A stretch of 35,681 bases of DNA from an uncultured Angelakisella sp. (GTDB lineage Bacteria > Bacillota > Clostridia > Oscillospirales > Ruminococcaceae). Position 1 is the first letter of the stretch, and each line of letters starts with the position of its first letter. This document shows positions 16,235 to 34,053 of the stretch, piece after piece. Below the pieces are notes generated by a model. That model ran no database searches. It was not told the origin of the DNA and saw only the letters and a program-made list of their open reading frames with translations. The stretch is taken from positions 1 through 35,681 of the forward strand of contig CAKSYU010000019.1 in the NCBI GenBank assembly GCA_934524965.1. The letters run 5' to 3'. A program made the translations under genes and the position numbers.

Positions 16235-16341
16235 TCTCTAAAATGCTTCAGTCCCACGCAGCAAAGGGGCACCGCTCGCTGCAGCACCCCCTGCCCTGTC
16301 CCGTTATGCGTGACCCCTGTCGGAACGCCTCCCCATTTCCG

Positions 16342-16705
16342 ATTTCAATCCACGCGCCCACCGTGGGGTGCGACCCATGACGATTGCAAGTGCCGCAAAA
16401 TTCTCAGCATTTCAAACCACGCCCCCGTGGGTGCGACTGTATTCAATAGTCAGCTTCGCCTTGTCGTTCTCATTTCAATCCACGCGCCCCGCGTGGGAAC
16501 GCGACCAGTTCCAACTCACGAGAGCCGTCTTCGATCGTATTTCAACCCCCGCACCTCCTGTGGGGTGCGACTTGCGCCGTTCCGCCGATCTCCAGTGTCA
16601 GCTTTGTTTCAACTCTCACGCCCTTACAGGGCGCGGCAAAAGCTGCGTATAAAACATCGCCACCAGTAAATTATTTCAACCCACACACCCCTTACAGGGT
16701 GTGAC
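16342..16705 (-). CRISPR. Degenerate type I-C CRISPR array, six repeats
   Basis: The repeats lie at 16342-16374, 16409-16437, 16472-16505, 16539-16571, 16606-16637 and 16673-16705. The five spacers are 34, 34, 33, 34 and 35 bases. Read on the minus strand, the repeats begin GTCGC (or GCCGC/GTCAC) and end TTGAAAT (TTGAAAC once), which is the type I-C pattern and the same direction as the cas genes. No two repeats are identical: lengths vary from 29 to 34 and the middles differ widely, but most keep a stem-loop. The first repeat is only 13 bases beyond the cas7c stop, so there is no room for a leader. Between the terminator at 16234 and the array I see nothing else. Confidence 0.9.
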
Positions 16706-22559: not shown

Positions 22560-22624
22560 CCCCCATCTCCCGCACCAATAAAAAAAGAGCCTGTCGGCTC
22601 TTTTTTTATTGGTGCGGGAGATGG
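22560..22624. repeat. Palindrome with ~30-bp arms containing the tRNA-Leu 3' end
   Basis: The left arm starts CCCATCTCCCGCACC (22562) and continues through AATAAAAAAAGAGCC to 22591. The right arm (22596-22625) is its exact reverse complement over 30 bases, around a TGTC centre. The right arm includes the last 16 bases of the tRNA gene, so the left arm is an inverted copy of the tRNA end. Confidence 0.85.
22580..22607 (-). terminator. Terminator of tRNA-Leu
   Basis: GAGCC-GACA-GGCTC followed by seven T on the minus strand, directly after the tRNA. The A and T runs extend the stem, so it can work in both directions. Confidence 0.85.
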
Positions 22625-22692
22625 GACTTGAACCCACACACAAAATGTACTGGCTCCTAAGACCAGCGCGTCTGCCATTCCGCCACTCCCGC
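22610..22692 (-). tRNA. tRNA-Leu (anticodon UAG)
   Basis: An 83-base class II tRNA with encoded CCA. Acceptor arms are GCGGGAG and CTCCCGC. The anticodon stem CTGGT/GCCAG encloses the loop CTTAGGA, giving anticodon TAG. A long variable arm and the T-arm GTGGGTTCAAGTCCCAT follow. Its 3' end forms one arm of a long palindrome and is repeated in inverted orientation nearby. Confidence 0.95.
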
Positions 22693-31285: not shown

Positions 31286-31811
31286 GGTACTTTTGACCCG
31301 CCAAAAGTACCCAAAAGCGTTTTAGGGCTGCCGCCCTAAAGACCCGCAACGCTTGGCTGCGCTGGATACGAATGTTGTTTTTCTGCGGCAGCAGAAAAAC
31401 AAATTCGTACTGCGCGCAGATGCGCTCCAAAGGTAGCCTGCGGCGGCATTTTTATCGCCCGCGCGCTGGAGCGCGAAGGGCGAACCACCACCCCTCTCCC
31501 CTCCTCTGAGGAGGGGAACTATGCCGCAGGTGAGGTAACACTTTATAGCTGGCTGCCCCCTTATGCCCATGGCAGGCGGCACTTGCCAAGCGCTGAATTA
31601 AGACAAGCAGGGAGTTGGACAGGAACTCCCTCCCCCGCTTCGGGGGAGGGGAGGGAGAGGGGGCAGATGTGCCCACAGCCCCTTATAAGCACCGTTTAGC
31701 CCACGCTTCGGGAAGCCGCCCTTTGGCTTCCCGAGCGGGCGTTCCGGTGCGTCCGGGGTCTCGGGGTGCCCCCGAGCGTGTTTTGCTTCCTTTTGCACGA
31801 GCAAAAGGAAG
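31286..31811. repeat. Cluster of tightly packed perfect hairpins
   Basis: Consecutive inverted repeats: GGTACTTTTG/CAAAAGTACC (31286-31311); TTTAGGGC/GCCCTAAA (31321-31340); TACGAAT + GTTTTTCTGC with partners (31367-31409); TCGCCC + CGCGC with partners (31455-31483); TCCCCTCCTC/GAGGAGGGGA (31497-31517); CCCTCCCCCG-CTT-CGGGGGAGGG (31628-31650); TCGGGAAGCC/GGCTTCCCGA (31708-31734); CTCGGGG-TGC-CCCCGAG (31760-31776); CTTCCTTTTGC/GCAAAAGGAAG (31786-31811). The gene-free stretch 31023-32147 also holds, at 31023-31285, an A/T-richer segment likely to contain the mfd promoter; I see no convincing gene there. Confidence 0.8.
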
Positions 31812-31891
31812 TCCCCGCCGGATAGGCGTACAAACTAAGCCACCTAAAAAACTTTGCGACGCCGATAGGCGAGATGGGTCTAAGTCATAGA

Positions 31892-32060
31892 ACGGGTCGC
31901 GGTGAGTGGGATGCGGAGCCGAGCGCTGCCTGTGGCAGATGCAGCGAGGCGGAGCATCCGCAGCGGTCGAAAAAATCGAGCAAGCGAGCAGCGCGAAGAT
32001 TTTTTCGGGCACCGCAAGGCGGACGGAGTGGGAGCTGATTTTGCCCCGCCGCAGGCGGAG
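31892..32060. repeat. Structured dispersed element, copy A
   Basis: About 165 bases alignable with copy B at 33887-34053. The core has an outer pair GCGGTG/CACCGC (31899-31904, 32010-32015); hairpin I with GGATGC/GCATCC (31909-31914, 31954-31959) and inner CTGCC-TGT-GGCAG (31926-31938); and hairpin II CGAAAAAATC/GATTTTTTCG (31968-31977, 31998-32007) around a 20-base loop. It lies downstream of pth on the minus strand. The coding strand, if any, is unknown; short open frames across it are not supported. Confidence 0.8.
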
Positions 32061-33886: not shown

Positions 33887-34053
33887 ACGGGTCGCGGTGA
33901 GAGGGTGCGGAGCCGAGCGCCGCCGGTGGCGGATGCAGCGAGGCGGAGCACCCGCAGCGGTCGAAAAAACCAAGCAAGCGAGCAGCGCGAGGGTTTTTTC
34001 GGGCACCGCAAGGCAACCGGAGCGGGAGATATGCTTGCCGCCGCAGTCGGAGG
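33887..34053. repeat. Structured dispersed element, copy B
   Basis: It has the same plan as copy A: GCGGTG/CACCGC (33894-33899, 34004-34009); hairpin I with GGGTGC/GCACCC (33903-33908, 33948-33953) and inner CCGCC-GGT-GGCGG (33920-33932); hairpin II CGAAAAAACC/GGTTTTTTCG (33962-33971, 33992-34001). Three stem pairs differ from copy A and all are changed on both sides. It begins within a few bases of the glmU-like stop codon and ends about 90 bases before the prs start. Confidence 0.8.

Follow-up and report, generated by a model that had tools for sequence, protein, structure and literature searches.

Base changes that compensate for each other across a stem are commonly read as a sign of functional RNA. 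Among DNA systems, integron attC sites have GTT/AAC core boxes and an integrase, and Rickettsia palindromic elements are palindromic repeats that enter genes in frame. REPs, in the parts of PMC3733652 that deal with them, are small dispersed palindromes with unpaired tags, many of them downstream of genes, and those tagged GTAG are thought to be miniature transposons; the same parts link RPE-6 and RPE-4 to CGTC repeats, and the terms 'clostrid' and 'firmicutes' are absent from the main text of that paper. In IS608, according to the relevant passages of PMC5934647, a right guide that lies 5′ of a hairpin forms base pairs with the cleavage site. Mitochondrial hairpin elements of fungi and sponges are portrayed in passages of PMC2800124 as small and possibly mobile single or double hairpins whose movement is unsettled, and those of sponges have conserved stems and variable loops.

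Here we describe two copies, A and B, of a two-hairpin element in a window of 35,681 nucleotides, the whole stretch of DNA that was analysed, from an uncultured Angelakisella sp. (contig CAKSYU010000019.1). The kinds closest to it are REP/CGTC repeats, IS200/IS605 ends and mitochondrial double-hairpin elements. Like REPs and BIMEs, the element is small, dispersed palindromic DNA with unpaired tags. However, REPs are palindromes of 20–40 bp and often form dimers, whereas the element has about 130 nt and two different hairpins; it also departs from REPs in its highly variable stems, in targeting hairpin loops and in lacking GTAG, an unpaired GTAG next to a hairpin having been counted in just 4 of 111 copies. 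CGTC or GACG stands at the foot of hairpin 1 in 26 of 111, and a link to CGTC REPs may therefore exist. With IS200/IS605 it shares folded single-strand ends and insertion 3′ of a short motif, but its target is GG in a hairpin loop instead of a fixed tetranucleotide. It reverses the sponge pattern described in those passages of PMC2800124, in that conservation lies in the unpaired parts, while the stems undergo compensated changes. Moreover, it is bacterial and often sits in tRNA loops, whereas the mitochondrial double-hairpin elements belong to fungi and sponges. The Rickettsia elements can be likened to it by description only, both being palindromic repeats. For GTAG REPs, IS200/IS605 MITEs and sponge elements alike, a tested defining feature fails in this family. 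Our data indicate that copies A and B very probably belong to a family of mobile or formerly mobile DNA elements with hairpin-loop targets.

Results

Copies A and B in the window

Copy A (31899–32025, + strand) lies in the pth–mfd intergenic region, within a gap of 1.1 kb, and copy B (33893–34019, + strand) in the glmU–prs intergenic region. All four genes are on the − strand, and both copies are therefore antisense to the genes that flank them. The initial annotation had placed the two copies in these regions with a two-hairpin plan common to both, which agrees with the 87% identity that we found over 137 nt, the longest repeat among the window repeats listed. A covariance model trained on 49 other copies (R1) scored copy A at 99.1 bits (E 3.6e-25) and copy B at 90.4 bits (E 7.6e-23), and the next-best match in the window reached 12.5 bits (E 0.04); hence the two copies are not a matter of chance.

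Hairpin 1 of copy A (31909–31959, + strand) comprises GGATGC/GCATCC with GCC/GGC, a GAGC/GCGA tier and the tip CTGCC-TGT-GGCAG, and corresponds to helices 1–3, which covary in the family; its counterpart in copy B spans 33903–33953 (+ strand). The tip follows the plan CTGCC-NGT-GGCAG, with the GGCAG side changed along with its partner in copy B. Hairpin 2 of copy A (31963–32015, + strand; helices 4–5) has the base GCGGT/ACCGC, an internal loop C/GGGC and an A6/T6 arm, and that of copy B (33957–34009, + strand) has perfect 10-nt arms (33962–33971/33992–34001). Just 5′ of hairpin 2, a guide-like CC (31958–31959 in copy A, 33952–33953 in copy B, both + strand) can pair with a GG in the tail (32018–32019 and 34012–34013), and both column pairs covary in the family.

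With GGGTGC of copy B aligned as partner of GGATGC in copy A, the stems of the two cores differ by six substitutions, which form three compensated pairs and leave zero uncompensated: GGATGC/GCATCC to GGGTGC/GCACCC, CTGCC/GGCAG to CCGCC/GGCGG, and AAAAAATC/GATTTTTT to AAAAAACC/GGTTTTTT. These are exactly the three pairs that had been reported as changed on both sides. The remaining core differences, said earlier to fall mostly in loops, are three loop substitutions and, immediately 5′ of stem 1, a T-to-A change together with an indel of 1 nt. An outer GCGGTG/CACCGC stem, which the initial annotation had also drawn, was rejected: the 3′ CACCGC instead closes hairpin 2 with the inner GCGGTC (31963–31967 with 32011–32015), relatives are without the outer GCGGTG, and the base stem of hairpin 2 is paired in 49/49 aligned relatives, all of them chosen for having that stem.

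Two further features of the window were seen. The pth–mfd gap near copy A contains several more perfect hairpins (31600–31820), and degenerate CRISPR-like repeats (ATTTCAATCCACGCGCCC...GTGGGGTGCGAC) with a spacing of roughly 65 nt occupy 16330–16680.

A dispersed family with patchy presence

Distant blastn against plasmid records found an 861-kb Vescimonas fastidiosa record with 22 blastn matches, in which the hairpin-2 search gave 24 matches and its control 0. In one clostridial order, that of an Oscillospiraceae MAG, the hairpin-1 pattern occurred in 64 of 295 sampled genomes, and the reversed control pattern gave 1 match. From 111 compiled copies, A and B among them, 49 were taken as alignment A2, the basis of R1; A2 leaves out A and B themselves, Vescimonas copies that are nearly identical to one another, copies whose hairpin-2 bases are different, and a number of others. 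Alignment A4, drawn from 98 chosen sources out of 291 loci, holds 116 matches at E <= 1e-9 fitted to the model, 114 of them distinct, and includes A, B and most A2 copies.

A covariance-model search of related genomes, as had been suggested, recovered copies outside the genome of the window: R1 detected the element in 16/40 genomes from the family of the Oscillospiraceae MAG and, under stricter filters, in 5/348 genomes of the phylum, the MAG included. By contrast with that 16/40, which serves as positive control, R1 gave no match in the 13 genomes nearest by Pth (the 12 closest among 394 sampled, plus An250; 57–61% identity). The element was likewise absent from 34 pth neighbourhoods of relatives, where the sole R1 match scored 11.4 bits (E 0.76). 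In 21 of these 34, mfd follows pth, and 19 of the 21 have <300 nt between the aligned parts, the other two being L251 with 0.7 kb and L008 with 1.3 kb; the window has 1125 nt. Because the 13 nearest genomes and the 34 neighbourhoods are all empty, the presence of this dispersed family is patchy. Most sampled genomes look fragmented, and several copies lie near contig ends. Among the options named by the initial annotation, that of a mobile structured repeat is the one supported.

The Vescimonas 'plasmid' pMM35_01 (NZ_AP023416.1, W01) carries rpmH–rnpA, dnaA–dnaN–recF–gyrB, rpoB and rpoC, and in view of such genes it looks like part of a chromosome. At 764940–765052 of this record a copy stands among prophage structural genes, just before the major capsid gene. 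Viral contigs among L104–L111 also bear copies; in one of them (L109:1577–1927) the copy lies within an open frame between two VPTPPVAEE repeats and the frame is unbroken.

Stem covariation, probably maintained in DNA

Pairing is very well kept while the sequences of the stems turn over. In A2, 91.8% of 1225 cells pair, both partners have changed in 18/25 pairs, and the covariation score of 0.456 falls to 0.125 after shuffling. In A4, 22/25 pairs change on both sides, 528 both-side cells compare with 144 in shuffled data, and the score is 0.474 versus 0.143; the counts of both alignments are uncorrected for kinship. The initial annotation had read the three compensated pairs as a maintained fold, and this very strong covariation bears it out; the outcome it feared, stems varying without compensation, is contrary to the 92.9% of cells that pair on the 114 copies. 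The unpaired motifs, in contrast to the stems, are nearly conserved, namely GAGCG..GATGNAGCGAG in hairpin 1, C/GGGC in hairpin 2 and a 3′ tail that is usually AA-NN-GG.

Such compensated change, together with the fact that tRNA neighbourhoods are transcribed, would suit a structured RNA (an ncRNA, a 3′UTR or an mRNA-processing element) under RNA selection. Selection on RNA would leave G.T commoner than A.C. However, one-sided changes in A2 are G.T in 9 and A.C in 16 of 1225 cells, with 73 and 61 expected from independent columns, and in A4 they are G.T in 23 and A.C in 20 of 2771 cells. In a control of 104 distinct tRNAs from loci L104 onward, G.T makes up 202/2362 pairs (8.6%), compared with 23/2575 (0.9%) for the element; this comparison concerns the G.T fraction only, as ARAGORN brackets show no A.C. 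From the equal rarity of G.T and A.C we infer that Watson–Crick matching is kept in DNA, and pairing thus looks maintained there, either because a DNA hairpin is selected for or because one arm is copied onto the other.

Orientation and homology searches likewise tell against a structured RNA. Among 21 of the 24 Vescimonas copies that could be placed among listed genes, 8 are sense and 5 antisense to co-directional genes, 6 lie between convergent and 2 between divergent genes, which is no clear orientation bias, and both window copies are antisense; no placed copy overlaps a listed gene in a gene table that is incomplete. An Rfam scan of the window gave nothing at gathering score except a tRNA, and permissive scans gave nothing on A or B. 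Apart from a tRNA in L100, all that a permissive scan of six family loci returned was below threshold; in L101 these models were chiefly microRNAs, mostly on its hairpin-rich flanks. A known Rfam RNA was accordingly rejected, because no family reaches threshold for the element. With G.T near absent and not commoner than A.C, mixed orientation and no Rfam family at threshold, the ncRNA and 3′UTR options raised earlier are not supported, and a structured RNA of any of these kinds is very improbable.

Element ends and search for a mobilizing enzyme

The dinucleotide just 5′ of hairpin 2 and the dinucleotide after the AA tail are Watson–Crick partners at 109/113 and 82/113 for their two places, compared with shuffle means of 52 and 55, shuffle maxima of 68 and 69, and only 10 and 11 of 113 with swapped partners. 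Seven complementary guide/tail pairs occur (TG/CA, GC/GC, GG/CC, CT/AG, GT/AC, TT/AA and CC/GG, the last in copies A and B), and GG comes next after the tail dinucleotide in most copies. Since 56 copies have TG/CA and 22 have GC/GA, which pairs at one place only, much of this guide–tail pairing is by subfamily. These dinucleotides occupy the place of the IS608 right guide and cleavage site, as those are described in the passages of PMC5934647 concerned.

The pairing of a guide-like dinucleotide with the 3′ end, the subterminal hairpins with bulges and the insertion 3′ of a short motif would all fit an IS200/IS605 (Y1 HUH) family MITE or an element of the REP type that a TnpA-REP mobilizes, and REP enzymes too read unpaired features of single-stranded hairpins according to the relevant part of PMC8266576. 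However, pairing of a left-end guide with the target was not seen by eye in the copies inspected, and the rarity of GTAG given above tells against a GTAG REP. Moreover, the enzyme itself is poorly associated with the element. Of 13 copy-rich genomes or records, 8 gave a hit to the Y1 domain PF01797 and 5 gave none, one of these 5 having 20 R1 matches; in the 40-genome sample, Y1 was found in 9/16 genomes with the element and 8/24 without. None of ten Y1 loci of about 3 kb carried the element. A Y1 transposase partner is therefore not supported, no TnpA association having been found, and an IS200/IS605 MITE or TnpA-REP element appears a distinctly doubtful reading. Most genomes look fragmented and their completeness is unreported, so the absence of an enzyme from them is weak evidence.

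A reverse transcriptase partner was not supported either, with reverse transcriptase in 4/16 genomes with the element and 6/24 without in the same sample, and no candidate mover enzyme was found among the Y1 and reverse transcriptase sets. An autonomous long form was sought in 20 stretches around hairpin-2 hits that had no hairpin-1 pattern match or were otherwise of interest. With 150 nt upstream covered, these stretches have no ORF-sized gap, and this candidate was rejected. The five Vescimonas stretches have a normal hairpin 1, most of the G301 ones show either a hairpin 1 of variant form or related hairpins in arrays, and L275, L280 and L284 are among the few in which hairpin 1 is not recognisable within 150 nt. 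No ORF between the hairpins was seen in any of the copies inspected.

Position of copies in hairpin loops and tRNAs

Neither copy A nor copy B is inside a tRNA or at an evident target hairpin, but many relatives are close to a tRNA. Of 92 copies tested, some of them in viral loci, 62 are in loci with a tRNA, and in 39 (34 loci) the left flank can be aligned with an intact tRNA from that locus. In 24 of those 39 the alignment ends at tRNA position 18–20, the GG of the D-loop; others stop at the tRNA-Pro anticodon loop (37–38) or in tRNA-Met (31–33), and in L115 the sequence extends to the anticodon loop beyond the end of the alignment. By eye, L175 and L188 are among copies that lie between apparent T-arm halves. 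An intact tRNA occurs within 1 kb in 52/79 loci of the order versus 0/25 control loci (p 1e-9), although the control is weak, as it consists of Y1 or pth neighbourhoods, many of which represent one gene region taken from several genomes.

In Vescimonas, none of 15 element loci has a tRNA within 1 kb. There the target is the TGGG tip of a GGGNCGATG/CATCGNCCC hairpin repeat, with 17 tips filled and 15 empty in 222.5 kb picked because it holds copies; a second repeat is filled in 2 cases and empty in 9. The filled tips have nearly constant element ends, and by eye nothing convincing was seen of a bias for replication direction in Vescimonas. In addition, the element enters itself: nested copies in L168 and L171 have left and right halves stacked at the hairpin-1 tip, with unequal numbers of halves. 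Where empty sites are known, insertion is usually just after GG. The count of GG in left flanks is partly circular, as copies were selected by the string GGGGA, and GG as target hence rests on the empty sites. Junctions are not clean, the right side differing from the empty site by about 1–2 nt. Copies in L122, L139 and L147 lie just after ATGAAAGC(A/C)ACAGG, which resembles the start of an AbrB/SpoVT-type gene and is by eye a recurrent target.

A direct repeat joins both flanks in 50/92 copies versus 0/75 control placements, and in 37 of these 50 the left copy of the repeat stops no more than 13 nt from the hairpin-1 core. At tRNA targets the repeat often consists of the 5′ portion of the tRNA plus the sequence upstream of it, after which the intact tRNA follows. 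Such repeats, the matched arms with their very few one-sided changes and the lack of a co-occurring enzyme would also fit a spread with no dedicated enzyme, in which replication stalls at host hairpins, the nascent strand switches template between arms or repeats, and gene conversion acts from arm to arm. At a few loci (L187, CCTGCTTTG..CAAAGCAGG, and L115) the target stem seems to have been extended by bases complementary to those of the loop. In the window, too, the 3′ end of tRNA-Leu (22610–22692, − strand), the sole tRNA gene found there, is copied together with a terminator-like stem into a perfect 30-bp inverted repeat with a 4-nt loop (22562–22625), which resembles the fold-back copying considered for the element. 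However, inverted flank matches occur in only 11/92 copies versus 3/75 control placements, hardly above control, and stem lengthening is thus not general. Moreover, the conserved unpaired motifs and tail imply recognition, and filled and empty tips with nearly constant ends, as well as copies at unrelated sites, suggest an end-specific step. An enzyme-free origin by stalling and template switching is therefore unlikely, if less so than a Y1-moved element.

Discussion

Taken together, our results suggest that A and B are probably copies of a non-autonomous, two-hairpin single-stranded DNA element of ~130 nt that is moved in trans and targets hairpin loops. The element would move as folded single-stranded DNA, and a nuclease or transposase supplied in trans would recognise its conserved unpaired motifs. 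The 3′ end may be cut after the GG of the tail, at a position set when the NN of the tail pairs with the dinucleotide that precedes hairpin 2, and the element would then be joined into the target strand at a GG that lies exposed in a folded loop. The match between the arms may be preserved by fold-back copying. The host loops found occupied are the D and anticodon loops of tRNAs, apparently T loops, the TGGG tip in Vescimonas and the tip of the element's own hairpin 1.

We searched the literature, mostly by narrow queries, and the matches listed included no description of this hairpin family; relative to that literature the family is apparently undescribed. More tentatively, it may represent an undescribed class of single-stranded DNA element, in which the target is a hairpin apex with exposed GG, the enzyme lies outside the known Y1 and reverse transcriptase sets, stems are rewritten by fold-back copying, and covariation records the structure of DNA and not of RNA.

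The family is a warning case, since very clear compensated stem changes occur in it with no excess of G-U. Counting G.T against A.C is a simple test that tells hairpins maintained in DNA from those of RNA. GG in a hairpin loop is a directly testable target, and the enzyme, if found, would be a loop-specific single-strand integrase. Moreover, the element could explain the truncated tRNA copies that stand beside intact tRNAs in this order.
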